DNA from: a virus
IMG/VR virus record: IMGVR_UViG_3300002835_000049
Span: 1 to 64,000 of that record
Reading direction: 5' to 3' (one strand)
DNA: 64,000 bases
Shown in pieces: positions 17,676-61,227 of this stretch (the first letter of the stretch is position 1; each line of letters begins with the position of its first letter). The notes beneath the pieces were generated by a model, which worked only from the letters and a program-made list of their open reading frames with translations, had not been told where the DNA came from and ran no database searches. Made by a program: the position numbers and the translations under genes.

Positions 17676-18476
17676 TTAAACACCTCCTTGGTTAGTCACT
17701 AAATCTTGTGAAGTATCAATTGTTTCATCTGGGTTTGGAGCTGAAGCTGGTGGTGTTGTACTCATATTACATATTTTAGTAATATCTGCATCAGTAAAAC
17801 CATTATTATAACCTTTTGCTTGTAAAGCTGCTTGTGTTTTAGGTCCAAAAAACCCATCAGGTTTAAGTCCTAAACAACCTTGTATTTGTATTATAGCGTT
17901 TGATTTACACCCTTTAGTGTAAGTCCCTTTACAAAATTTGTAAGAACTTTTAGGTTTACCACCTACCGCCGGTTTTTCACCAACCGGAGATGTTCTTTTT
18001 TTTGTTAAACAAAACCCTTTTAATTCGTTTTGGATTGATTTAATTAACTTTGATTTAATATCGTTAAATTGTGGTTCTCCTTCTTCCGTTGATGATTGGA
18101 TAAGACCCATTAGGTCCTTATTTTTCATATCTGAACCGCTAATAGATGCTAATGTTGTAAAATAATCTAAAAGATTCCCCGATTTGGTAGCTTTCATGTA
18201 TAGATTAATTTTACTTAAAAGACAACTACCATCTTCGTATACTTTCCCAAACACTTGGTTATTTAAAATATCTTGAACATCTTGTAAATCAGAACTTTGC
18301 ACATCCCCCATAAATTGTTGGTAAATACTGTGTGTTATGTCGGCGGCATCGCTAGGGTTGACCTGTTCAAGAATTATTTCAGTATTTTCTTTTAAAGTCT
18401 TTGTATTATCGTATTTCATCATAAGAAGAACTCTTTTAAGAGCATCGTTCCCCTCGTTTAAATTAAATTTTTCCAT
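17676..18476 (-). CDS. tagged protein with peptidoglycan-binding domain, 266 aa
   Basis: An N-terminal helical region ends in EIILEQVNPSD (about residues 32-42), again an L-x-E-Q type sequence. A central helical region (45-160) is followed by a PG_binding_1-like domain: SNAIIQIQGCLGLKPDGFFG and PKTQAALQAKG (about 190-225). The tail is Pro/Thr/Asp rich. Four or more Cys suggest disulfides outside the cytoplasm. It could anchor a virion part to the cell wall during entry. It precedes the 547-aa gene by 25 nt. Confidence 0.82.
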   Translation of the reverse strand: MEKFNLNEGNDALKRVLLMMKYDNTKTLKENTEIILEQVNPSDAADITHSIYQQFMGDVQSSDLQDVQDILNNQVFGKVYEDGSCLLSKINLYMKATKSGNLLDYFTTLASISGSDMKNKDLMGLIQSSTEEGEPQFNDIKSKLIKSIQNELKGFCLTKKRTSPVGEKPAVGGKPKSSYKFCKGTYTKGCKSNAIIQIQGCLGLKPDGFFGPKTQAALQAKGYNNGFTDADITKICNMSTTPPASAPNPDETIDTSQDLVTNQGGV

Positions 18477-27585: not shown

Positions 27586-29460
27586 TTATTCAGATTTTAT
27601 CTCTTCAAATTCAACATCAGACACATCAATATCAGATTCTGAAACATCACCCTCATTAACACTTGAGTATAAATCTTGAGATATTTGTTGGAACTTTTGA
27701 GATAGTTCTTCCGACAATACCTTAACATTTTCAATATCTCTACTAGAATGAGCTTCTTTCAACTTATCCATTGATTCAGTTATTGTTGTTTTTTGTTCTT
27801 CAGAAATTTTATCTTCCAAATCCGTCAAAGATTTACCTGTTTGGAAAATCAGGTTGTCAGCAGAATTTAATGTATCCACATCCTCTTTAAGTTTTTTATC
27901 AGATTCAGCATTTTCTTCAGCCTCCAATTTCATTCTTTCAATTTCCTCTTGAGATAATCCTGAAGATGCCTCAATTCTGATTGATTGTGTTTTGTTTGTT
28001 GCTTTATCAACAGCGGAAACATTAATAATACCATTCGCATCAATATCAAAAATTACTTCAATTTGAGGTGTTCCCCTCATTGCCGGTGGTAACCCATCTA
28101 AATGGAATCTACCGATTGTTCTATTGTCTTTCGCCATTGGTCTCTCACCTTGTAATACGTGAATTTCAACAGATGGTTGATTATCAACGGCCGTTGAGAA
28201 TACTTGAGATTTTTTAGTTGGAATTGTGGTGTTAGATTCAATAAGACGAGTTAAAACACCACCCATTGTTTCAATACCTAATGAAAGAGGTGTAACATCT
28301 AACAATAATACATCTTTCACATCACCAGCTAACACACCACCCTGAATAGCCGCTCCTAAAGCAACAACCTCATCCGGATTAACACCTTTTGATGGTTCTT
28401 TACCGAAGAACTTTTTAACAGCTTCCTGTATCGCAGGAATTCTAGTAGAACCTCCAACAAGAATAACCTCATCAATATCGGTAATCTTTAATTTAGCATT
28501 TTTCAAAGCTGATTTACACGGAGCAATAGTTCGTTTAATCAAATCACTTGCAAGTTGCTCAAATTTAGACCTTGTTAATGTTTTCACCAAATGTTTTGGT
28601 CCGGTAGCATCAGCACTTAAATAAGGTAAGTTAATCTCTGTTTGAGGAGAAGAAGATAATTCAACTTTAGCTTTTTCAGCACCTTCTCTCAATCTTTGTA
28701 ATGCCATCGGGTCTTTTGTAATGTCTAAACCATCATTATCATTTTTAAATTCATCAACTAAATAGTCAATAATGATTTGGTCGAAGTCATCACCACCTAA
28801 ATGGGTATCACCATCTGTAGATAATACTTCAAAGACACCACCACCTAATTCAAGGATGGATACATCATGCGTTCCACCACCACAGTCAAACACAACGATT
28901 TTACTATCACCTTTTTTATCAATACCATAAGCCAATGCGGAACTTGTAGGTTCAGAGATAATTCTCAAGACATTTAATCCGGCAATTTGACCTGCCTCAA
29001 TTGTTGCTTGTCTTTGAGAGTCATTAAAGTAAGCTGGTACGGTGATAACCGCGTCAGTGATAGATTCTCCAACATAATCTTCAGCAGTTTGTTTCATTTT
29101 TTGTAAAATGATTGCTGAAATTTCTTGTGGAGAGTATTCTCTATCGTCAATTTTAACTCTTGGAGTGTTTCCACTACCTTTAACCACAGAATACGAAACT
29201 TTAGATAGTTCATCTACGATACTATCGTAATTAGCCCCCATGAATCGTTTAATTGATGATATAGTTTTTGTTGGGTTGGTTACAGCCTGTCTTTTTGCTG
29301 GGTCACCAACTTTTCTTTCTCCATCAGTTAAGAAAGCCACAATTGAAGGTGTTGTTCTTTTACCTTCGCTATTTGCGATAATTATGGGTTCGCCGCCCTC
29401 CATAATGGCACAACACGAGTTTGTTGTCCCTAAATCAATTCCTAGAACTTTTTTGCTCAT
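27586..29460 (-). CDS. dnaK: chaperone DnaK (Hsp70)
   Basis: The full 624-residue Hsp70 has the ATPase domain with [17 protein letters not shown] at the N-terminus, [15 protein letters not shown], a phosphate-2 loop written [16 protein letters not shown] (His where Phe is usual) and [14 protein letters not shown] linker ([19 protein letters not shown]) joins the substrate-binding domain and lid, and the C-terminus [10 protein letters not shown] is close to the cellular end. All expected parts are present, so it is probably active. No dnaJ or grpE lies in the window, so it would rely on host co-chaperones. Hsp70 is rare in phages. It may help head assembly or replication-complex remodelling. 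Confidence 0.97.
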
Positions 29461-29593: not shown

Positions 29594-30163
29594 TTATTTT
29601 GATATATTATATTCCAAATAATTATCCATTATTTCAATAATCTCGGGTGTCATATTTGGGACATCATTAATATTATATCCAAAACTTCGTAAGTAGTTGT
29701 CACCTGAATCATAAATGTCGTTATCATTCCCATAATATACGGCATTCAAACCAAAATTATTCACATCTTTAATTAATTCCTCGTAATACTCTAAAGCAAT
29801 TTCATCAGATTCAAAATTATAATTCAAAACATCATTAACATATTCCAAATCATCATATTCGTTTCTCAATCTATGTAATGAGTATATTTCATAAAAAGTT
29901 GGATTTCCGGTTATACCTTTTTTAATTGGTGTTGGGTGTCTTTGAGCAATCACCATAGATGTTCCCTGGTGATGTTGTTCCCACTCATGGACATCTCTAA
30001 TAATACACCATTGACAATATGTTGCGTATTTACGTAATGCTCTATGAGTTAATGGTATAACAACCACAACTTCTTCGTCTCTATATAACTCAATTCGTTC
30101 TTCTCTTGGAACTCTAACCTCCAATAACAAATCATTTTGTTTTTCTGTGATAATAAATTTCAT
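29594..30163 (-). CDS. tagged protein, 189 aa
   Basis: The tag reads MKFIITEKQNDLLLEVR. The body contains ALRKYATYCQWCIIRD, a YxxxTxWCI-type motif known from several phage and plasmid protein families of unclear activity, and MVIAQRHPTPIKKG. The acidic C-terminal half is Asn/Asp/Tyr rich. No catalytic residues can be named. Confidence 0.78.
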   Translation of the reverse strand: MKFIITEKQNDLLLEVRVPREERIELYRDEEVVVVIPLTHRALRKYATYCQWCIIRDVHEWEQHHQGTSMVIAQRHPTPIKKGITGNPTFYEIYSLHRLRNEYDDLEYVNDVLNYNFESDEIALEYYEELIKDVNNFGLNAVYYGNDNDIYDSGDNYLRSFGYNINDVPNMTPEIIEIMDNYLEYNISK

Positions 30164-30203: not shown

Positions 30204-30578
30204 ATGAAAATATTTTTAGACGATAATAGAGTTCCTTACGATGTATTTAAAAACACAATTGACCCAATTTATGAAAATAATAATGATTGGATAGTGGTTA
30301 AGGATTATTTAGAATTTGTAAACACCATTTTAGAATACGGATTACCGGAAGTAATATCGTTTGACCATGATTTATCTCAAAATCATTATTTACCCGAAAA
30401 TCAAACAAATATTAGTTATGATACCATAAAAGATAGGACAGGATTTGACGCCGCATTATGGTTAATAGGTTATTGTAGAATGAATAATATTAAATTACCA
30501 AAAGTTAAAGTTCATTCGGCAAATCAGGAGGGTAAAAAGAATATTGAAAGATTATTTTTCGGAGACAAAAGCTCTTAA
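30204..30578 (+). CDS. cyclic-phosphate-processing receiver-like protein (cREC type), 124 aa
   Basis: From Met 30204 (MKIFLDDNRVPYDVF) the protein shows LDDxRxP, EVISFDHDLSQNHY, GFDAALWLIGYC and KVHSANQEGKKNIERLF. This set of Asp, His and Ser residues is typical of the receiver-like domain predicted to process cyclic-phosphate RNA ends (Pfam cREC_REC). It converges on and overlaps the ParB-like gene by 27 nt. It may work with the HAD proteins nearby. Confidence 0.8.
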   Translation: MKIFLDDNRVPYDVFKNTIDPIYENNNDWIVVKDYLEFVNTILEYGLPEVISFDHDLSQNHYLPENQTNISYDTIKDRTGFDAALWLIGYCRMNNIKLPKVKVHSANQEGKKNIERLFFGDKSS

Positions 30579-31133
30579 TTTCACTTTATCCCAATTTTTA
30601 AAGTCCTCACCATTATCACCAAGTTTTAATGTGGACATTGCTCTATGCCATCCCTCAACAATTTCATACTTACCATACTTATCTTTATGCACAATTATTG
30701 GTTCGTTTTTACCTGTTGGGGTGGCTAGTTCTTTTTGTATTTCCATCCTTTTTTTGTCATCTTTAACAAAATAAGCATCAACCTCACCAAATTCTCTCTC
30801 AATGAAGGAGTTTATATTGTTCTCAACAAAATCTTCAGGGTTAACTTTAATTATTTGTAATTTCCAAGGGCCTTTTAAATAATTATAAATCATTTTACCT
30901 AAAAAAGGTATTGGGTCTCCGTGATATTGTCCCATCACAGTTTTATAACTCTCTTCATCACCACATAAAACATTCGTCACAAATTCTTTTAAGATATATT
31001 CCGGAGTATTTGGAAACTCTTTTTTGAATCTATTATAAAATGATTTACATACTGATGTTGCCGGCTTATAGAGGGGGATTGATTGGATGTCCTCCCATAA
31101 TTTATATTGTTGTTCTGTTATTATTATTTTCAT
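30552..31133 (-). CDS. tagged protein with ParB/sulfiredoxin-like domain, 193 aa
   Basis: The tag is MKIIITEQQYKLWEDIQ. The C-terminal region has EPIIVHKDKYGKYEIVEGWH followed by RAMSTLKLG, the pattern of a ParB-type nuclease fold, where GxHR would be the usual site and here reads GWHRAM. The N-terminal 90 residues are helical. It could be a nuclease or CTP-binding protein carried in the virion. This is inference from the tag and fold. Confidence 0.8.
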   Translation of the reverse strand: MKIIITEQQYKLWEDIQSIPLYKPATSVCKSFYNRFKKEFPNTPEYILKEFVTNVLCGDEESYKTVMGQYHGDPIPFLGKMIYNYLKGPWKLQIIKVNPEDFVENNINSFIEREFGEVDAYFVKDDKKRMEIQKELATPTGKNEPIIVHKDKYGKYEIVEGWHRAMSTLKLGDNGEDFKNWDKVKLRAFVSEK

Positions 31134-31134
31134 A

Positions 31135-31596
31135 TTACATTCTATCTTTTATATCGTCCAACATACTCTCATCAAATTCAACTCCGTGTCTTTCTTGGAA
31201 ATGGTCTAATAATATTCTAATTGGTTCGTAATATCCTTTATTCTGTAATAGTAGATACGCTCCCAAATCAGCTTCCAACTCGTCTTTTTCGTCTCTAGGT
31301 CCATCGTGACCCAACAATACATGAGTAATCTCGTGAGCTTCAATAAATTTTAAAATACTTGTGGCATCCGGTTGTCCCTCCAATATCTGTCCATCAATAA
31401 TGATTAAATTCTTACCAGGAACCATAAATCCAAAACCATATTCTTCAAAAAACCCCTCAACTTGGTTATATAACGGGTCGTTCTCAAATACCACAACAAC
31501 CGTGACTTCATCTAAAAATTCACTGGTATATTCTACTTGAGAATCGTCTTCTTTAATTAACTTTTTATATTGAGATTCTGTAATTATTAATTTCAT
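31135..31596 (-). CDS. tagged HExxH metallopeptidase-like protein, 153 aa
   Basis: The tag is MKLIITESQYKKLIKEDD. A zincin motif at residues 88-92 lies in KFIEAHEITHVLLGHDGP, with DELEADLGAYLLL (about 105-117) offering the third acidic ligand. The fold matches short minimal gluzincin-like proteases. It sits between two other tagged genes, with overlaps of a few nt. A packaged protease injected with DNA is a testable idea. Confidence 0.82.
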   Translation of the reverse strand: MKLIITESQYKKLIKEDDSQVEYTSEFLDEVTVVVVFENDPLYNQVEGFFEEYGFGFMVPGKNLIIIDGQILEGQPDATSILKFIEAHEITHVLLGHDGPRDEKDELEADLGAYLLLQNKGYYEPIRILLDHFQERHGVEFDESMLDDIKDRM

Positions 31597-31985
31597 ATTT
31601 TATGAACCCCCCCCTTAAATGTTGATTGAGCATTTTCACCATATGTTTTATTAAACCATTCTAATATATCATTCTCAAACCACATTGTGTATTGTTTGGC
31701 TCTATTATATATTTTTGTGTTAACATATAATCTATTTGGAGCTTCAGAACCTACTTCACCAACACCAGATTTCCAATCAGATGGTGAATCAATTATTAAA
31801 GTAAAAAATATTTCATTTGTTTTTGGGTCGTAATATCTACGAGTAAGACCTCTTGACGAACTTTTAATTCTATCCATTTTTAAATCCCCAATATTTGGAT
31901 ATCTAATTTTTAAAAATGTATCAAAATCTGGTTTATTGTTTTCAACCAATATTTTATACTGACTTTCTGTTATTCTAATTTTCAT
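31593..31985 (-). CDS. tagged hypothetical protein, 130 aa
   Basis: The tag is MKIRITESQYKILVENN. The body is beta-rich and basic (SSRGLTRRYYDPKTNEIFFT). The gene overlaps the start of the protease gene by 4 nt. No family is recognised. Confidence 0.75.
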   Translation of the reverse strand: MKIRITESQYKILVENNKPDFDTFLKIRYPNIGDLKMDRIKSSSRGLTRRYYDPKTNEIFFTLIIDSPSDWKSGVGEVGSEAPNRLYVNTKIYNRAKQYTMWFENDILEWFNKTYGENAQSTFKGGVHKI

Positions 31986-32738: not shown

Positions 32739-32744
32739 AACAAT

Positions 32745-32771
32745 AAACCCCCTTAATTGGGGGGGGGTTTT
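32745..32771. terminator. bidirectional terminator
   Basis: AAACCCCC/GGGGGTTT around TTAATTGG between convergent genes. Confidence 0.85.
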
Positions 32772-32780
32772 ATTTAGTAA

Positions 32781-33284
32781 CTATTCAATGTAATAAAGAT
32801 TATTACCCTCATTACTAACACATTTATACCCTAATTTATCTATATTATTATCAGTTCCATTTAAATTTATTATCACTAAATCCGGTAAATCACAAACATT
32901 TACATCTGAAAAATCTGCATACTCACAATTTATAACCCTCAAAAGTTGAATATTTCTTAGTAATGGTAATATTGAAATGAATCTTTTAGTTATTTCAGAT
33001 GATTTATTTTCAATAATTATATACTCCCGACGCGAGGAGTAATCTACTTCATCAAATAAATTATATTTTTTAAGTATTAACTCATTTTCCTCTTTTCCAA
33101 TATCATAATCGTAATCATCATTGACATCACTGACATCTCGTGATATTGGAGAGTCCATTGTTGTTGTTTGTGTCCAATATCCGGTGTTATTAGGTTGTTC
33201 TTGTTCTGATATAACTCTTCCCCGTTTATACCCAAAAAGGTATTTTATATTTGCGATGTCTTCGTTAATTAATTTTTTATCCAT
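32781..33284 (-). CDS. tagged protein, 167 aa, long-leader form
   Basis: The leader MDKKLINEDIANIKYLFGYK runs into RGRVISEQ. It is nearly identical to that of the next gene upstream, after which the two proteins differ completely. The body has repeated short leucine-rich-like strands (LLRVINCEYADFSDV, LPDLVIINLNG), so the mature part may be a small LRR or beta-helix. Confidence 0.8.
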   Translation of the reverse strand: MDKKLINEDIANIKYLFGYKRGRVISEQEQPNNTGYWTQTTTMDSPISRDVSDVNDDYDYDIGKEENELILKKYNLFDEVDYSSRREYIIIENKSSEITKRFISILPLLRNIQLLRVINCEYADFSDVNVCDLPDLVIINLNGTDNNIDKLGYKCVSNEGNNLYYIE

Positions 33285-33289
33285 TTTTA

Positions 33290-33670
33290 TTAAAAATCTT
33301 CATTAAAATCACCTTCTTCGTAATCAAAATCACCCATTTCAGTACCACCAAATTTTGTTCCATAAGGAATATCGGTTGGATGATGTTCAAACCCTAATTC
33401 TTCTCCGTGTGCACTAGGGTGAAACCCAACACCATGTTTGTGTGTTCCAACAATTTCACCAGTGTCAGAATGTTTTACCAATCTTGAAGGTCGTTTTTTT
33501 TCAGTATTAAAATTTACTTTTTCCGTATCCCATAAATCTTCATCTAATTCAGTATCTAAATAACCTTCAGTGGTGTAATCATAATCTTGTTCTGAAATAA
33601 CTCTTCCAGCTTTATACCCAAAAAGATATTTCATATTAGCAATATCTTCATTAATTAATTTCTTATCCAT
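33290..33670 (-). CDS. tagged protein, 126 aa, long-leader form
   Basis: Start at Met 33670 gives the same leader as the neighbour with two substitutions (Ile to Met, Arg to Ala), ending RVISEQD. The body contains LVKHSDTGEIVGTHKHGVGF and HPSAHGEELGFEHHP, rich in His and Gly, and an acidic tail. A metal-binding role is possible. The extra 9 codons of the longer frame do not resemble the leader family. Confidence 0.8.
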   Translation of the reverse strand: MDKKLINEDIANMKYLFGYKAGRVISEQDYDYTTEGYLDTELDEDLWDTEKVNFNTEKKRPSRLVKHSDTGEIVGTHKHGVGFHPSAHGEELGFEHHPTDIPYGTKFGGTEMGDFDYEEGDFNEDF

Positions 33671-33703
33671 TTTAATTGTTTTTATTATAAATATCAAAAT
33701 ATT

Positions 33704-34363
33704 TTAAATATACTTGAACGTATACCCTTTTACTTGATTCCTTTTACCATTAGCAACCATACTAGCTTTACTACCATCATTTTTCGGACATAACCCAACA
33801 CTCCTACAAGCCTCTGAGATTGAATGGTAAATACCAATAATTTCTTTAGTATTATAATTTAATAATAAAGTTTTTTTTGCTTGACCTGATTTAATTGTTC
33901 TTAATGATTGTTTATGTTTTTCTTCCTCAGACCTTTTTTGACCAGTTAAAGATTTACTTCTTTTTAATCTGGTTTCTTCCGATGGTGATTTACCAAAATT
34001 GGGGTTTTTATTCCCTAATTTAGATTGTCTCATTTTTTCTTTAGTGTCGTCAGACATAATATAATTCCATATACCGTCACCACCATCCGTCATATTACAT
34101 AAAATCCCAGTACTCAAATCTTTTCTACCGTATAATTTAATAAACTCTTGTTCTTTTTCCGAAGCTTGATTTTTAGTTAAATTTTCTAAAATAATCTCAA
34201 TTTCAATATCAGATTTATTAAAAATTTTACACCAAATTTCATTACGTCTGTCAGGTTCGGTTTGATATGCTCTCGCATAATTTTTTTTATTACCAATACC
34301 AATGTAAAAAGGTTCATTCTTGTCTAGTCTAACGTGTCTATAAACATACCAATTATTTTCCAT
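33704..34363 (-). CDS. GIY-YIG-type endonuclease with NUMOD repeats, 219 aa
   Basis: The N-terminal WYVYRHVRLDKNEPFYIGIG is a GIY-YIG variant in which the first motif is YVYRH. Catalytic-type Arg and Glu follow in YARAY and ASEKEQEFIKLYG. SKLGNKNPNFGKSPSEETR and similar copies are NUMOD3, and the C-terminal IGIYHSISEACRSVGL is a NUMOD1-type DNA-binding unit. This is the usual plan of free-standing homing endonucleases in phages. Confidence 0.87.
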   Translation of the reverse strand: MENNWYVYRHVRLDKNEPFYIGIGNKKNYARAYQTEPDRRNEIWCKIFNKSDIEIEIILENLTKNQASEKEQEFIKLYGRKDLSTGILCNMTDGGDGIWNYIMSDDTKEKMRQSKLGNKNPNFGKSPSEETRLKRSKSLTGQKRSEEEKHKQSLRTIKSGQAKKTLLLNYNTKEIIGIYHSISEACRSVGLCPKNDGSKASMVANGKRNQVKGYTFKYI

Positions 34364-34490
34364 CATACTTTTTTATTTCGTTAAGTATTAATTTTTCAAC
34401 CCAATCATTTAATTTAATAGAATTATCTTTACAATAATCTTTTAATTTTTGGTGGGTTTCTTTACTAATTATTAAAGTTTTTCTTTCCAT
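34353..34490 (-). CDS. small ribbon-helix-helix-like protein, 45 aa
   Basis: From Met 34490 the product is MERKTLIISKETHQKLKDYC then KDNSIKLNDWVEKLI, a beta-strand followed by two helices like the Arc/MetJ fold. It overlaps the start of the endonuclease gene by 11 nt and could regulate it. The longer frame begins with a low-complexity hydrophobic stretch overlapping the endolysin end. Confidence 0.65.
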   Translation of the reverse strand: MERKTLIISKETHQKLKDYCKDNSIKLNDWVEKLILNEIKKYDGK

Positions 34491-36004: not shown

Positions 36005-36244
36005 ATGGAAAAGATAATTAAATTAACCGAAAAAGATTTAACAGAAATTGTTAAACGAGTTATTTCTGAACAAAATGATAATTTTAATCCCGATAGATTA
36101 TATAGAAAAGAATCTATGATTGGTAGAATTAAAAGAGGTCCAAAATTTATTCACAAATATGTCAAAACATTACCCGACTTAAAAAAAGAAGGTTCTGATG
36201 AAGTATGGACTAAAATACCTCAAGTAGTTTGGCAAAACATATAA
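36005..36244 (+). CDS. small tagged protein, 79 aa
   Basis: The leader MEKIIKLTEKDLTEIVKRVI ends in SEQ, the same type as MAKIIKLTESELKDIIKLIM-TEQ at 55649. The mature part (about 24-79) is small and basic. It stands alone before a terminator. It may be a peptide packaged in the head. Confidence 0.75.
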   Translation: MEKIIKLTEKDLTEIVKRVISEQNDNFNPDRLYRKESMIGRIKRGPKFIHKYVKTLPDLKKEGSDEVWTKIPQVVWQNI

Positions 36245-37496: not shown

Positions 37497-37666
37497 ACCC
37501 CATGTTTTTTTATTCTTAATTCTGTATATCGTTCATCATCACCAGGTTGTGTATAACCCTGCGTTAGAATATATTCTAAATTGATTAACTCTTGATATTC
37601 CTCCAAGGTTAAATTTCCTCGGAGTTCTTCTGACACTTTATCCCAAATTTCTTTAAATGTCCTCAT
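37493..37666 (-). CDS. hypothetical protein, 57 aa
   Basis: MRTFKEIWDKVSEELRGNLT continues with LEEYQELINLEYIL and ends KKHGV. It is helical. The start overlaps the GIY-YIG stop by 4 nt and the stop overlaps the next start, so the endonuclease sits inside a coupled unit. Confidence 0.7.
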   Translation of the reverse strand: MRTFKEIWDKVSEELRGNLTLEEYQELINLEYILTQGYTQPGDDERYTELRIKKHGV

Positions 37667-38355
37667 AGTTTAAATTTAAAAATAAAACCACCGGCTGTTT
37701 TTTTTTTATTGTGCAAATTACCTGATATTGAGGTTCTACTTATTCCTAACTCAATAGACGCTGTTTTAGTGCTATCCCATTCCTTGATAAATTCATCGTC
37801 TTCTGTATATTGTAAAATTGGTTTAAATTGTTGTGGAGCGGGTTTTCCAAATCTTATAGAATGGTTTGTTTTATAAAACTCTTTCATTTTACTTGCAGCG
37901 TTTTCACTTCTTTTTTTTCTTTCTTCATCGGTTAAACTATCCCAATATTTTTTAACACCTTCTCGTCGTTTTTCTTTTTCTTTTTCAGCGTTTTCACCGT
38001 GAAGTTCATCGTAGGTTTTATCTTTAAAAAATTCTTGTATTTTGGTTTTACTTTTTTCCGTATGGTGTTTTTTAAATCCTTCTCCACCATCCGTTAGATT
38101 ACATAACGAACCCGTTTTATTCGATATTTTACCATAAAGTTTTATTAATTCCTCTTCTTTTTCACAAGCTTCCTCCCAACTGATATTATCGAACAAAATA
38201 TCTACAATATATTCAGTTTTTTTTATTATTTTATACCAAAGATAATTTCTTTTATATGTGACATAAGCTCGTTTATAGTTATCTAAATGAGAACCAATAC
38301 CGATGTAAAAAATTTCATTATTATCTAATCTTGTGTGTTTATATACGTAAGCCAT
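37663..38355 (-). CDS. GIY-YIG-type endonuclease with NUMOD1, 230 aa
   Basis: AYVYKHTRLDNNEIFYIGIG parallels the protein at 34363, with YKRAY and ACEKEEELIKLYGK following. The middle is Lys/Glu rich (KEKEKRREGVKKYWDSL), and the end is a NUMOD1 unit (STKTASIELGISRTSISGN). The two genes are homologs at separate sites, as expected of mobile endonucleases. Confidence 0.86.
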   Translation of the reverse strand: MAYVYKHTRLDNNEIFYIGIGSHLDNYKRAYVTYKRNYLWYKIIKKTEYIVDILFDNISWEEACEKEEELIKLYGKISNKTGSLCNLTDGGEGFKKHHTEKSKTKIQEFFKDKTYDELHGENAEKEKEKRREGVKKYWDSLTDEERKKRSENAASKMKEFYKTNHSIRFGKPAPQQFKPILQYTEDDEFIKEWDSTKTASIELGISRTSISGNLHNKKKTAGGFIFKFKL

Positions 38356-40599: not shown

Positions 40600-41211
40600 A
40601 TGAAGAAAAAATTCATAATAACTGAAGAAGAAAAAAACGAAATAAAATCGTTATATAATTTAACTGAACAAGTTTCTGATAATATAATCAGTACTATTAT
40701 CCAAAAAGCCGCTGAATATGCTAAAAATAAGTTAAAGTCAGGGTCAAAAGATTCTTCTCTTGATTTATCTACTTCACCATTATCCACAAAAACAACATCT
40801 GATGATGATTTCTATAAAAACATTTTAAAATGTATTGGAGCTCAACCAACAAGAAATAATATGTTATTTATGTATGCTTGGAGACAAGCCGAAGGTGGTG
40901 GTTCCGCTAATAACCCATTTAACACAACTCAACCTTGGCCGGGAGCTACAGTATTAAAAGGTAGTTCGGTAGGAGTTAAAAATTATAAAACACCTGAAGA
41001 TGGAATACAAGCGACTTGTAAGACATTAAAAAATGGTAGATACCAAAATATAATAGATGGGTTTAAAAATGATGTCGGATTATCCAAATTAACCGACGCT
41101 GTTGTAAATTCAAAGTGGGGTACAAAAGATTTATTGGGAAGAATAACTAAAGATTATTTAGCCGGAGTCTCACCAAAACCACATCCAATCAATAAAACTG
41201 CAATTGCTTAA
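40600..41211 (+). CDS. tagged lysozyme-like protein, 203 aa
   Basis: The leader MKKKFIITEEEKNEIKSLYN ends in LTEQ. After a Ser/Thr linker (50-70), a muramidase-like domain contains MYAWRQAEGGGSANNPFNTT, GVKNYKTPEDGIQATCKTL and NGRYQNI, as in phage glucosaminidase/lysozyme domains. A tagged cell-wall enzyme fits a virion hydrolase used in entry rather than in lysis. Confidence 0.85.
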   Translation: MKKKFIITEEEKNEIKSLYNLTEQVSDNIISTIIQKAAEYAKNKLKSGSKDSSLDLSTSPLSTKTTSDDDFYKNILKCIGAQPTRNNMLFMYAWRQAEGGGSANNPFNTTQPWPGATVLKGSSVGVKNYKTPEDGIQATCKTLKNGRYQNIIDGFKNDVGLSKLTDAVVNSKWGTKDLLGRITKDYLAGVSPKPHPINKTAIA

Positions 41212-46464: not shown

Positions 46465-47076
46465 TTATTGTATTTCTTGTTTATTTGTTAGGTATAACTC
46501 CTCAACATCTTTTTCCAAGTAAAATTGTAATTGGTTATTGGTTGTTGTAATCTCTTTATATCGTTCCTCCGCCATATTAATGTGCTCATAAACATGACGC
46601 TTTGTTGTTGTTATCCCCTCTTTGTATTGTTCATCCACCTGTTTTTGTAGACGCCAACCGAACTCCTGTGTTGATTTTACACCCACTTTGTAGTGTTCCT
46701 CCACCATTGATGTCCAATTAACGGAAATAGAACCAGTTGTTGCGACCCCCACTTTGTAGTGTTCCTCCACCCTTTCCATCAATATTTCTTTCCACTTCTT
46801 CGATTCTGTTGTTATCCCCACTTTGTAGTGTTCCTCCACCCATATCTTTGTGATGTCCTTAATTTGTTGATTAGACATACCAAACATATTTTCAAAAAAC
46901 TTCCAAATTTCACTATAACTCACATAGACATACCCATTTTTTTTATTATGTTGCAGAATACATTTCCCATTTTTCATATGAAAGATATAATCAGGATATT
47001 CTTTCATTATAAATGGTTCCATATGATTGTAGTTATCGTTTAACCACTTGATACAAAGTTTTTCTATTTTAGTCAT
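46465..47076 (-). CDS. repeat protein with conserved/variable 22-residue units, copy A (203 aa)
   Basis: The N-terminal domain of about 85 residues starts MTKIEKLCIKWLNDNYNHME and ends in FENMFGMSNQQIKDITKIWV. Six units follow of the type VEEHYKVGVATT plus about 10 residues. The first part of each unit is well conserved (VEEHYKVG, VDEQYKEG, AEERYKE), while the second part is unrelated from unit to unit. The first part of the unit copies the last helix of the N-terminal domain. Function unknown. It may present variable surfaces. Confidence 0.82.
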   Translation of the reverse strand: MTKIEKLCIKWLNDNYNHMEPFIMKEYPDYIFHMKNGKCILQHNKKNGYVYVSYSEIWKFFENMFGMSNQQIKDITKIWVEEHYKVGITTESKKWKEILMERVEEHYKVGVATTGSISVNWTSMVEEHYKVGVKSTQEFGWRLQKQVDEQYKEGITTTKRHVYEHINMAEERYKEITTTNNQLQFYLEKDVEELYLTNKQEIQ

Positions 47077-48486: not shown

Positions 48487-48955
48487 AATTTTTTAATTTT
48501 TGTTTTGTAATGTTCCTCCACCAATACGAATTCACGACCCAAAGTTTTAGACGTTGTTGTTATCCCCAATTTGTAATGTTCCTCCACCATGGTTTCGTAA
48601 TCCTTAAAGAATCCGGAGTTGTTGTCGCCCCCAATTTGAAATGTTCCTCCACCGAAAAGTTACGGGGATTGGCACACACGATAGTTGTTGTCGCCCCCAA
48701 TTTGAAATGTTCCTCCACCCATTCCTTCGTTAATCCCTGAATTTGCGTGTAATTCATACTAAAATAGTTTTCAAAAAACGACCAAATTTCCCTATAATTG
48801 ATATAAGCACGCCCATTTTTTTTATTGTAATCAAAGATAAGTTTACCATTTTTTATATAGAAAACATAATTAGGATATTCCGGTGATTCAAATATTTCTA
48901 AATCACCGTAGTTATCGTTTAACCATTTGACACCTATTTTATTTAACTTGCTCAT
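48483..48955 (-). pseudogene. repeat protein with 22-residue units, copy B, interrupted by a 1-nt deletion
   Basis: The N-terminal domain starts MSKLNKIGVKWLNDNYGDLE and is followed by VEEHFKLGATTT units. One 66-nt unit is only 65 nt long (about 48591-48655), so the original frame stops at 48560 as a 131-residue product. The -1 frame continues the repeats (VEEHYKLGITTT, VEEHYK) to a TGA that overlaps the next ATG by 4 nt, as in a normal coupled gene. This points to a deletion or a sequencing error, or less likely a programmed shift. Confidence 0.75.
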
Positions 48956-52769: not shown

Positions 52770-53081
52770 TTAAAATAAAATGAGGGATGTAATTCGTTTA
52801 TCCGTAATCCTTTCAACAACTTCAGCCATCAAAGATTTTAATCTTTTATAATCAATACCTAATTGATTTGTGATATCACTAATGGTTTTAATACTAAACG
52901 CCATATCATCACCTATTTCATCATAAATAATGATAATATCACCATTTCTCGTTGATATCCATTGTTCTTCGTCACCATAAGTATCATTACTTCTCATTTT
53001 GGAAACTACTTTTTTCTCCAATGGACCAATAAATTTGATGATAACATCAATTAATTTATTTTCAGTAATCAATACTTTCAT
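52770..53081 (-). CDS. tagged small protein, 103 aa
   Basis: The tag MKVLITENKLIDVIIKFIGP merges into the first helix of a small domain. The middle has ISTRNGDIIIIYDEIGDDMA, the end LMAEVVERITDKRITSL. It resembles the small paralogous proteins at 60263 and 60865 in plan. Function unknown. Confidence 0.75.
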   Translation of the reverse strand: MKVLITENKLIDVIIKFIGPLEKKVVSKMRSNDTYGDEEQWISTRNGDIIIIYDEIGDDMAFSIKTISDITNQLGIDYKRLKSLMAEVVERITDKRITSLILF

Positions 53082-53177
53082 ACTATTAAATACTATTATT
53101 TTCCATTATAATGTAATATAATCCAATATTAAGACATTTTTTTCCACTAAAAGTGGTATTTTGGTAAATATTTTCCA

Positions 53178-53570
53178 CTATTCTATTGTTTTAACAGGAA
53201 CATTAAAGTTATCCCAAAACCAATCAATAAATGGTTGTTTCCATCTATCACCAAATAAACTATTTAATTGGTCTAATTTATCAGTGTCTTCAAATTCTAA
53301 TATCGGAGATTCATCAATCATTTCTTTTAAAAAAACAGGGCTTAAAGTTTCAGTTTCTTCACTACGCCAATAATCCTCACCATACCATCTGAATAGAGTG
53401 TTATCGCCACCATCTTCATAATCATCTGTATAGAATTCTACGGCGTAATCAACTTCATTACCCCAATCATCTATGCCGGGTGTCCATCCAATATTATCAA
53501 CATCAAACATACTATTAATATATTTGAGTATTAAATCATACACTTTATCTTCAGTTATTATAATTTTCAT
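53178..53570 (-). CDS. tagged small protein, 130 aa
   Basis: The tag MKIIITEDKVYDLILKYINS leads into an acidic Trp-rich body, with a final LNSLFGDRWKQPFIDWFWDN, similar to the closing helix of the domain in the repeat proteins. Unknown function. Confidence 0.75.
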   Translation of the reverse strand: MKIIITEDKVYDLILKYINSMFDVDNIGWTPGIDDWGNEVDYAVEFYTDDYEDGGDNTLFRWYGEDYWRSEETETLSPVFLKEMIDESPILEFEDTDKLDQLNSLFGDRWKQPFIDWFWDNFNVPVKTIE

Positions 53571-55187: not shown

Positions 55188-55649
55188 TTATATTTCTTCA
55201 CCAAATAAATCATCTGTCCATCGTTCAGGGACAAGAACCACAATATAACCTTTTGTGACATTAACAGCGGATGTTGGTAATAAGTTATTGATTTCTTCTA
55301 ATAGTTCCTCATTTTCCTTAAAAACGATTCGTAATTTACCATCTTCAGCGGTGTCAACGATTTTATGTCTATTATTTTCCATAATAGACTTAAAATTTTC
55401 TATATCACCAAATTTATCTTCAGTTTCTTCTGGTTCAATATCCAAATCACCAGCTAAAAATCTATCGGGAACATTACTCTCACCACCACTTTTTAAATAT
55501 TTGATTTCTTCGTCTGTCATTCCTTCAAGACCAACTTCATTATATAAATCCAAGATACTATCGTAATAATCGGTATCAAATTGTTCCGTCATAATTAATT
55601 TAATAATATCTTTTAATTCAGATTCTGTTAATTTTATAATCTTTGCCAT
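55188..55649 (-). CDS. tagged protein, 153 aa
   Basis: The leader MAKIIKLTESELKDIIKLIM runs into TEQ, with a predicted cut near residue 22-23. The body is acidic and contains EEIKYLKSGGESNVPDRFLA and a C-terminal alpha/beta part ending DLFGEEI. Unknown function. Confidence 0.75.
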   Translation of the reverse strand: MAKIIKLTESELKDIIKLIMTEQFDTDYYDSILDLYNEVGLEGMTDEEIKYLKSGGESNVPDRFLAGDLDIEPEETEDKFGDIENFKSIMENNRHKIVDTAEDGKLRIVFKENEELLEEINNLLPTSAVNVTKGYIVVLVPERWTDDLFGEEI

Positions 55650-56021: not shown

Positions 56022-56092
56022 ATATAAAATATAAGAAAATTTAAATAACAAGTAAATTTGATTGGTTGGAAATTAATAACTATATTTGGGTT

Positions 56093-56986
56093 ATGGAAGA
56101 AATAATTAACAAACTAATAAAATATCATATAAAGGGTGTGGATACTTACACTCACAATGGCTCCACTTGGTTAATCTTTACGAAGACCAAACAATGGGTG
56201 ATAGAATTAACCGATAGTAAAACTCTATGGTATAATTATACCATAGAATTAACCGAGGGTAAAACTCTATGGTATAACTACAACTTCTTCAATAGTGTTT
56301 TTTCTTATGCGTCGTTAGATGTCGTTCAGAACCAACACCTCATTACAAAATGGGTGGAAGATAATGTTATAAATGGGGTAAAGGAAACTTCCCACAACGC
56401 AACGATGTTCCAATCAATGAAGGTTGAAGACACCCTTGAAAATGGGGTGAAAGAAACACAATTTAATTGGCACGAAAATAAAAGTTGGGTTGAAGGCGTT
56501 ATTAAAGAAGGTGTGAAGGAAACTCTCAACACCGAGTATATGCCACAGATAATGGTTGAAGACACAATTGAAAATGGTGTAAAACAAACCTTACCTGGAG
56601 GAAAATATATTAACGATGTTGAAGAAGTTATTAAAGATGGTGTGAAAAGTTCTCATCCACTCCAATATAAATCAGAAGAGATAATTGATGAGGTGGTTAA
56701 TGATGGTATAAAAGAAACCCACGATGACACATACCACCACAAAGGAAGAATTGATGGCGTTATTAAAAATGGGATAAATCATACTCAACCTCATGTTATA
56801 AAAAATAAATATATCGTTGAAGAGGTAATTGAAGATGGTGTTAAAAGTTCTCACCCACTCCAATATATCTCAAAAGAGATAATTGGTGGTATAATAGAAA
56901 CCCACGATGACGCATATCACCACAAAGGAAGAATAGATGGCGTAATTAAGAATGGAGTTAAAGAAATAAAAAATCCCACCGGTTAG
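56093..56986 (+). CDS. repeat protein with 22-residue units, copy C (297 aa)
   Basis: From Met 56093 (MEEIINKLIKYHIKGVDTYT), the N-terminal domain of about 90 residues ends FSYASLDVVQNQHLITKWVED. About ten units follow, of the form VEDxIxNGVKET plus about 10 variable residues. Two unit types recur exactly or nearly so (SSHPLQYxSxEII and ETHDDxYHHKGR), showing recent internal duplication. The plan equals copies A and B although the unit sequence differs. It is on the opposite strand to its neighbours. Confidence 0.82.
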   Translation: MEEIINKLIKYHIKGVDTYTHNGSTWLIFTKTKQWVIELTDSKTLWYNYTIELTEGKTLWYNYNFFNSVFSYASLDVVQNQHLITKWVEDNVINGVKETSHNATMFQSMKVEDTLENGVKETQFNWHENKSWVEGVIKEGVKETLNTEYMPQIMVEDTIENGVKQTLPGGKYINDVEEVIKDGVKSSHPLQYKSEEIIDEVVNDGIKETHDDTYHHKGRIDGVIKNGINHTQPHVIKNKYIVEEVIEDGVKSSHPLQYISKEIIGGIIETHDDAYHHKGRIDGVIKNGVKEIKNPTG

Positions 56987-57163: not shown

Positions 57164-57535
57164 TTACCAAGTTCTACACGCCCAATATCTAGCTTTCCAT
57201 CTTGGTCCTGGATTATCACAATTCATTCTCGCTCTAAAAGATTTTCTTCTTGCCGGATTATTCTTTTTTATTACCATTCTTTTACCTTTGGCAGATTTTC
57301 CTCCAAATCCAAAATTTACCTTAACAACATTTCCTTTGTCGTTCTTAACATACACTTTGAATTTTTTAACATCTCCTTGCATAATTTTACCAAGTTGAAC
57401 TTTTCGTCCCTGATATTCGGCTTCCGTTAGTAAATCACCAACAACAAAGTTGGTTTCCTCAACGGAGCCATAAAAACTATCATCTATATTGTTAAATAGT
57501 TTTTCGTACTGTGATTCTGTAATTATTATTTTCAT
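57164..57535 (-). CDS. tagged protein with basic virion-type domain, 123 aa
   Basis: The tag is MKIIITESQYEKLFNN. The C-terminal part reads KFKVYVKNDKGNVVKVNFGF then ARRKSFRARMNCDNPG and RWKARYWACRTW. This basic Cys/Trp-rich domain is known from many large phages as a small conserved virion or structure-linked domain of unknown activity. It overlaps the next gene (DUF5872-like) by 4 nt, and both carry the tag. Confidence 0.85.
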   Translation of the reverse strand: MKIIITESQYEKLFNNIDDSFYGSVEETNFVVGDLLTEAEYQGRKVQLGKIMQGDVKKFKVYVKNDKGNVVKVNFGFGGKSAKGKRMVIKKNNPARRKSFRARMNCDNPGPRWKARYWACRTW

Positions 57536-58032
57536 TTCTTTTTGTAACTTGTCATTGTTGGTTTATTTCCTGTTCCCACCTTTGGGTCTTTCTTTTCCGC
57601 TCTTCTTTTTTGTTGGGTCATTGATTTTTTCTCATCCTTATCATATGATGATGCCACCTTTGGAGTTTCCGATGATACCTTTTTTGATGGACGACATTTT
57701 GGGTAAGCCTTTCCATCAGCATCCTTTCTTCCACAAGGAGGATGTTTTCCATCAACTTTTTTACTTACATCAACCCACTTTTCTTTAAACCATCTTTTCA
57801 AATCTTCATTAACAGCTTCGTTGGTTGATTTCTTTTTTCTCCAACCACCACCTTTTGATTTATATCGTTTGGCAGCAGCACCATTACAATACGCACTTGG
57901 ACATACTTTATATTTTGACCTTGCCCAAGCCAAACATTGAGCCCATAATTTTGGGTTGGTTGGTTTATTCTCACCTTCGGTCAAATAACCTTCCAATATG
58001 GTATGTTGTCTTTCTGTAATTATAAGTTTCAT
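57532..58032 (-). CDS. tagged DUF5872-like protein, 166 aa
   Basis: Start at Met 58032 gives the tag MKLIITERQHTILEGYLTEG. A Cys-rich block (LAWARSKYKVCPSAYCNGA and AKRYKSKGGGWRKK) is followed by WFKEKWVDVSKKVDGKHPPC then GRKDADGKAYPKCRPS, the DUF5872 pattern. The end is basic. Found in large phages and giant viruses. Role unknown. The tag again suggests virion localisation. Confidence 0.85.
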   Translation of the reverse strand: MKLIITERQHTILEGYLTEGENKPTNPKLWAQCLAWARSKYKVCPSAYCNGAAAKRYKSKGGGWRKKKSTNEAVNEDLKRWFKEKWVDVSKKVDGKHPPCGRKDADGKAYPKCRPSKKVSSETPKVASSYDKDEKKSMTQQKRRAEKKDPKVGTGNKPTMTSYKKK

Positions 58033-60262: not shown

Positions 60263-60541
60263 TTATTCTGAAATATCTTCAATACCGGCTTCAGGAAAAT
60301 TATCTTGGAGATACCTCAACATTAAATCATTTGAGTTTTTCCCAAATATATCCTCTAATTTATCTTCCATATCATAACTTGAGAATATAAAACTTTTACC
60401 ATTTTTCCACCCATAAACTTCCCCATGATTCTTCCAATTTCGAAACTCCCTATGCTCGGGGACATAAATTAAATTTGTTCGGTGATTGATATATTTAACG
60501 AACGCATCATACATTCTACTTTCTGTTATTAGTATTTTCAT
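60263..60541 (-). CDS. tagged small protein, N-domain-like, 92 aa
   Basis: The tag MKILITESRMYDAFVKYINH merges with the first helix. The rest has VYGWKNGKSFIFSSYDMEDK, LEDIFGKNSNDLMLRYLQDN, the same plan as the N-domain family. It links the tag and the N-domain families in one protein. Confidence 0.75.
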   Translation of the reverse strand: MKILITESRMYDAFVKYINHRTNLIYVPEHREFRNWKNHGEVYGWKNGKSFIFSSYDMEDKLEDIFGKNSNDLMLRYLQDNFPEAGIEDISE

Positions 60542-60542
60542 A

Positions 60543-60863
60543 TTAATAATTTAATTCTTGTATATATAATAATGTACTTAATAAATTGGGTTGACCGAAT
60601 TTATCGGCAACATATTCTTTACAAATATCTACCAATTCGGGGATGCCAATACCAAACATATTTTTAGCAGTACCAAAGTCATCACTATTAAAGACAATAA
60701 TTTCAGTTTCTGTGTCATAATGAAAAGCAACACGACCATCACCATTCATATATTCAAATAGAACATGGGGTGCTTTCATATTTATCGCTCGTCTTCCGTG
60801 TTTTTCGTAACCTCTGAAAACCGAATCAAAAAATTTAAACACAAGTCGTTTTATTTTATCCAT
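60543..60863 (-). CDS. small domain protein of the N-domain family, 106 aa
   Basis: From Met 60863 (MDKIKRLVFKFFDSVFRGYE), then ETEIIVFNSDDFGTAKNMFG and VDICKEYVADKFGQPNLL. It has the family plan without a tag. It lies between two tagged genes. Confidence 0.75.
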   Translation of the reverse strand: MDKIKRLVFKFFDSVFRGYEKHGRRAINMKAPHVLFEYMNGDGRVAFHYDTETEIIVFNSDDFGTAKNMFGIGIPELVDICKEYVADKFGQPNLLSTLLYIQELNY

Positions 60864-60864
60864 A

Positions 60865-61227
60865 TTATTCATCAACAAAGTTATTTATAATATAATCTAA
60901 TTCAATACCCAAATGTTGGATACCAAGAACTTTTAAAAAATCATATTCGTCAATTTTACGATTTTGTTTTTCGCTTAAAACCAATATACCATATTCTTTA
61001 CCTTGAGGTTGAACATAATAATTATTACCATCAATATGAAACAAATACATTGGACCAAAATTGTTAAGTAACCATCTAAACTCCTCTCTACCATCAGAGA
61101 ACAAGTGTTGACCTTTAGGTCCTAACTCAATCCAATTTGTAATTATCTCAATACGGTCAGACAAATCATATCCCACCACCTTGGTAATTAAATCTTTTAT
61201 TTTATTCTCCGTAATTATAAATTTCAT
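60865..61227 (-). CDS. tagged small protein, 120 aa
   Basis: The tag is MKFIITENKIKDLITKVVGY. The body includes EEFRWLLNNFGPMYLFHIDG and KEYGILVLSEKQNRKIDEYD, ending in a helix. Unknown function. First of a three-gene run. Confidence 0.75.
   Translation of the reverse strand: MKFIITENKIKDLITKVVGYDLSDRIEIITNWIELGPKGQHLFSDGREEFRWLLNNFGPMYLFHIDGNNYYVQPQGKEYGILVLSEKQNRKIDEYDFLKVLGIQHLGIELDYIINNFVDE

Follow-up and report, generated by a model that had tools for sequence, protein, structure and literature searches.

Bacteriophage T4 loads its internal proteins into the head by means of a 10-residue N-terminal capsid-targeting peptide (CTS), and its gp21 prohead protease cuts after L/I-X-E (PMC9026906). 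The principle that proteins may share a leader and nothing else is already known from this phage, whose Ip1-3 each inhibit different restriction enzymes (PMC12373910). The T4 protein Alt is cut at ITE-6 (PMC5694885). Among the T4 sequences read for comparison, the junction is MKTYQEFIAE↓A in IPII and IPIII and FLTE↓A in gp23 (an arrow marks the cut, which is predicted for all sequences discussed below).

A comparable arrangement is found in IMG/VR virus record IMGVR_UViG_3300002835_000049, a 115-kb fragment of a giant T4-like phage whose first 64,000 nucleotides form the window, that is, the whole stretch of DNA analysed here (Table 1). Two neighbouring genes, A and B, begin with leaders that are identical at 26 of 28 residues and end in VISE↓Q, which upholds an earlier sequence-only reading of the locus that had described a common leader with two differences; these fall at residues 13 (I/M) and 21 (R/A). 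Their DNA alignment (blastn E 6e-30) starts shortly before the ATG and reaches codon 29, with 81 of 93 bases identical (87%); by codon 30 the likeness is gone, and when the whole proteins are compared by blastp residues 1-29 alone align (5e-16). Because both the DNA and the protein alignments stop there, the codon-level comparison that had been proposed places the breakpoint at codon 28-29, one residue past the predicted scissile bond E27↓Q28. The leaders differ at 11 of 84 bases, eight of the changes being silent, which corresponds to a dS of 0.87 against a dN of 0.045 (dN/dS about 0.05) and therefore indicates conservation of the peptide and no recent copying of DNA. The leader is under protein-level selection; the two copies have been separated for some time and kept constant as peptides. 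Inspection of the 28 residues reveals no long hydrophobic stretch, and the leader does not qualify as a Sec signal peptide.

Table 1. Coordinates of the genes, leaders and other elements of the window
Feature	Position	Strand	Remark
Leader gene, LNEGND class	17676..18476	-	Weak peptidoglycan-binding/endolysin-like match
DnaK-like (Hsp70) reading frame	27586-29460	-	Full length; also in G8 and G4
Leader gene, MKFIITEKQNDLLLE↓V	29594..30163	-	
Leader gene, MKIIITEQQYKLWE↓D	30552..31133	-	ParB-like body
Leader gene, MKLIITESQYKKLIKE↓D	31135..31596	-	Metallo-protease-like body; G1 and G7 orthologues without leader
Leader gene, MKIRITESQYKILVE↓N	31593..31985	-	
Terminator-like C-rich/G-rich inverted repeat	32742..32780	-	Downstream of A; seen in the sequence
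Gene A	32781-33284	-	167 aa
Body of gene A	32781..33200	-	Ordered C-terminal alpha/beta domain, possibly LRR-like
Leader of gene A, MDKKLINEDIANIKYLFGYKRGRVISEQ	33201..33284	-	28 codons; predicted prohead-protease site after E27
Gene B	33290-33670	-	126 aa
Body of gene B, HGEELGFEHH family	33290..33586	-	Without the ~90-codon C-terminal extension of the G3 and G8 orthologues
Leader of gene B, MDKKLINEDIANMKYLFGYKAGRVISEQ	33587..33670	-	28 codons
TATTTAT	33689..33695	-	Lies 25 nt before the start codon of B; candidate (late) promoter of the B-A pair
GIY-YIG-type endonuclease-like gene	33704-34366	-	Matches group I intron endonuclease model, below cut-off
Leader gene, MEKIIKLTEKDLTEIVKRVISE↓Q	36005..36244	+	
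Second GIY-YIG-type endonuclease-like gene	37663-38355	-	Judged by similar N-terminus alone
Leader gene, MKKKFIITEEEKNEIKSLYNLTE↓Q	40600..41211	+	
Proteins with ~20-residue repeats	46465-47076, 48560-48955, 56066-56986		VEEHYKVG.., VIKNGVKET..
Two short-leader genes, MKxLITE class	52770-53081, 53178-53570 (52770..53570)	-	
Leader gene, MAKIIKLTESELKDIIKLIMTE↓Q	55188..55649	-	
Leader gene, MKIIITESQYEKLF class	57164..57535	-	No distal [IL]xE beside the leader
Leader gene, MKLIITERQHTILEGYLTE↓G	57532..58032	-	
Two further MKxLITE-class genes	60263-60541, 60865-61227 (60263..61227)	-	

Behind the leaders, the bodies of A and B display no homology to each other by sequence. AlphaFold orders the C-terminal alpha/beta domain of A (residues 80-167, pLDDT about 90) and yields a poor model of B (mean pLDDT 50). 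Neither protein matches Pfam, PHROGs or NCBIfam, a fold search with the A model returned nothing significant (no PDB match below E 0.5), and neither the whole proteins nor leader-only queries matched cultured phages. The contention that the bodies are unrelated, which homologous bodies would have undermined, thus stands at the level of sequence, the structural side being limited by the B model; the LRR-like label given to A is at most tentative.

The A/B leader is not confined to this locus. IMG/VR was scanned with a degenerate DNA pattern for [I/M]KYL[F/L]GY..G.VI.E, in which I-x-E was fixed and the residue after E left free. The motif occurs at 91 places, representing 48 distinct leaders, with [ILV]xE upstream in all 91 copies and Q at the free position in 91/91. 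By blastp single linkage, the bodies that follow belong to 16 families. A search of bacterial and archaeal genomes gave no match to the pattern, and therefore provides no host link.

The converse, homologous bodies with different leaders, is also found among related records (numbered with the prefix G). The A body, which has the LINED leader here, follows an unrelated leader in two relatives: G1 has MKNLYNKISQQEKKRILEMHTGMKKTIKE↓Q and G2 a sequence very like it, TIKE↓Q or TIKE↓Y being their last residues. In G3 the A body forms the C-terminus of a larger protein that starts with a MKLIITESQYRILTE leader, and homologues with other leaders occur in L006, L007 and L008. For an ERYMFFSNL body the leader is LINED in G1 but of the LTEKDL class in G4; in L017 and L016 this body comes after the B body in one fused protein, with LFE↓Q or MTE↓Q at the junction. 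These fusions retain the LFE↓Q or MTE↓Q between the bodies, as if a polyprotein were cut twice. Two different leaders precede the TPPVTSG body inside one genome, and G8 holds two copies of one body whose leaders differ and end ILSE↓Q and LVE↓Q. When homologous bodies that differ in their leaders are aligned, the similarity resumes at [IL]xE(Q). The nucleotide sequence of gene A resembles a chimera of two genes that adjoin each other in G1: bases 1-93 match the leader gene (90%), and from base 201 onward the match is to the body gene (68%). Compared with G3, B is here shorter by its lost C-terminal extension, and A is an addition in front of the terminator-like repeat, which in G3 occupies the corresponding position after B. 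The module shuffling that had been claimed for this locus is therefore borne out in both directions, and the swaps agree with the description of the tag as a transferable signal, the kind of signal having been left unnamed.

An all-against-all comparison of the 115-kb record with G8, a syntenic relative of 322 kb, reveals further clusters of N-termini common to unrelated bodies. Profiles of seven leader classes retrieve 166 genes in nine related records, covering 69 body families, so that by sequence at least seven interchangeable classes are recognised; the 115-kb record alone has 30 tagged genes among 198, roughly one in seven. The typical ending of a leader is [I/L]-x-E, the gp21 cleavage motif, which is short and common. 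In classes other than MKxLITE a distal [IL]xE is present in 46 of 57 non-redundant bodies against 22.0 +/- 3.3 after shuffling, a count that is not independent of the site because the class profiles include it. In a second test, proteins were picked by their first ~10 residues alone. [IL]xE then lies at positions 12-30 in 105/185 picked proteins against 228/930 others (p 4e-17, a value that overstates independence because related genes are counted), and [IL]xEQ in 33 of the 185 against 28 of the 930. The same comparison finds no excess of [IL]xD at 12-30 or of [IL]xE further in. The MKxLITE class has the distal site in 0/11 cases, its sole possible site being the ITE near residue 7.

The leader genes also tend to follow a common upstream element. 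TATTTAT is present within 60 bases upstream of 83/91 leader genes that are preceded by a gap of their own, as compared with 219/678 other genes, and its reverse is not enriched upstream of leader genes. In G8 the element also precedes the genes for gp20, gp21 and gp22 and the one beside the capsid gene. Non-leader genes with TATTTAT encode portal, protease, tail tube and baseplate proteins, but others code for a helicase and for homing endonucleases; with this spread beyond structural genes, a late promoter is no more than a suggestion. Before the leader genes of all records the element has two preferred distances to the ATG, 11 and about 20-26 bases; were it a promoter, the shorter spacing would leave almost no untranslated leader. 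Two other promoter guesses, TATAAATA and TA..TTTG, were dropped as not enriched. A and B probably belong to one operon.

In relatives, the tagged genes keep company with T4-type head genes. This record, a fragment, yielded no gp21 or gp23. Of the 16 searched records that carry the leader and reach 100 kb or more, 15 encode both PF03420, the protease of gp21 type, and PF07068, the capsid protein of gp23 type; G8, clearly syntenic with this record, is one of them. The capsid protein of the relatives has a conserved N-terminus of ~60 residues that ends in LINE, with A or S as the very next residue and a variable stretch beyond it; every version read has LINE↓A or LINE↓S, the predicted end of a propeptide. 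The first segment of their scaffold protein ends SLTE↓Q, and the protein adjoining the capsid gene has four short N-termini (IKE, INE, ISE, LNE) before one common body. By its capsid protein (about 41% identity), the cultured Flavobacterium phage immuto is one of the nearest named relatives; on it the leader HMMs give weak matches only, one of the proteins reading MKKQILSEQFRRMQKLAGIITE↓S.

Most tagged bodies tested have no family match. The cargoes that do match include an Acb1-like 2H phosphoesterase of the anti-CBASS family (Pfam Acb1, 28.1 bits against a cut-off of 27), encoded outside the window at about 72230-72796 (-) of the G000 record, with the leader MELNEQITKIKTMMGINE↓N and two HxT motifs. 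Other matches are to a peptidoglycan-binding domain and, more weakly, to ParB-like, metallo-protease and endolysin families.

Because the leader stops at [I/L]xE and the relatives have T4-like head genes, the A/B leader is read as a T4-type capsid-targeting propeptide; most likely it is cut by a gp21-type protease and loads cargo for injection. Late in infection, the leader would draw each tagged protein into the prohead core, where the prohead protease would then cut after [I/L]-x-E (here VISE↓Q). The freed body would stay in the head, be injected with the DNA and act on the new host cell, genes A and B encoding two such cargoes. Bodies would be freely exchangeable because, as proposed, the leader alone is needed for loading. 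Such a role accounts for the common leader and the free choice of bodies, for the motif at the boundary, and for the association with genes for gp21 and gp23. We infer packaging, cleavage and injection of the tagged proteins from sequence, the protease genes having been seen in relatives. Several points count against the reading: the 115-kb record itself yields neither gp21 nor gp23, the MKxLITE class lacks the distal site, [I/L]xE is a short and common motif, and TATTTAT is found outside structural genes too. Further, by inspection the leader has no sequence homology to the T4 CTS MKTYQEFIAE beyond the motif, it is longer, and it prefers Q behind the cut, a place usually taken by A in the T4 proteins examined. 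With the motif alone in common, the leader is classed as working like the CTS and not as its proven homologue.

The tagged proteins might instead be scaffold-like components of the prohead core that are degraded at maturation, with nothing injected. The T4 core proteins gp67 and gp68 likewise start with [I/L]xE-rich peptides and are processed, and some tagged genes of G4 (35396, 37993, 54400) adjoin the capsid gene. However, the bodies vary greatly, both in whether they occur and in what they are, unlike a conserved core, and they include enzyme-like domains (Acb1-like, metallo-protease, ParB-like, peptidoglycan-binding), which makes a core role quite improbable. It would be similarly surprising if the leader served targeting or regulation unrelated to the head, through a phage compartment, a host partner or a degradation signal; the leaders do look amphipathic, a cut would expose an N-terminal Q and packaging is itself deduced, but the boundary coincides with the gp21 motif and the leader with gp21 and gp23 genes. 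That the leader is a functionless relic of DNA recombination, through local duplication or homing, is suggested by the homing-type endonuclease gene beside B and the 87% DNA identity of the leaders, but is rejected on the dN/dS, the codon-level result having largely refuted it, and is rendered extremely improbable also by the occurrence of the endonuclease gene in G3, where gene A is missing at that place, and by retention of the motif in the 48 distinct leaders across IMG/VR.

More broadly, a lineage of giant T4-like phages may have a general cargo-delivery platform, for which the chances appear even. About a tenth or more of the genes would carry interchangeable tags, each loading the head, with one protease releasing an injected pool that includes counter-defence (the Acb1-like anti-CBASS candidate), proteases and cell-wall enzymes; tags would be gained, lost and swapped between phages. 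If the capsid-targeting reading is right, the leader is a sequence rule that predicts which uncharacterised genes of such phages are packaged and injected, and natural tags are suggested for loading proteins into large phage heads. The few internal proteins of T4 turned out to be anti-restriction factors. The tens of tagged genes per genome would accordingly be testable candidates for host take-over and counter-defence.

Among known systems, the giant phages phiKZ and SPN3US also have N-terminal head propeptides that a prohead protease cuts after glutamate, and two SPN3US paralogues share a common N-terminus. Their motif is A/S-X-E, a form that the [I/L]-x-E leader sites do not take, their propeptides are mostly much longer and they represent a different phage group. 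Another is T4 Alt, an ADP-ribosyltransferase packaged in the head, whose MELITE↓ resembles the short MKxxITE leaders, although none of the tested bodies was recognised as an Alt homologue. A further likeness is to the CTS of T4 IPI, IPII and IPIII, a short N-terminal peptide ending L/I-X-E on otherwise unrelated proteins; as with the T4 internal proteins, the cargo slot is variable and T4-type head genes are at hand, here in the relatives. What appears to be new is the set of leader families, how many of them there are, and the LxE↓Q junction, no description having been found in a limited literature search. Whereas the T4 CTS spans 10-19 residues and forms one class, the leaders here span 23-45 residues and form at least seven classes with Q favoured after the predicted cut, and the three to about ten tagged genes of T4 compare with tens of putatively packaged ones per genome.
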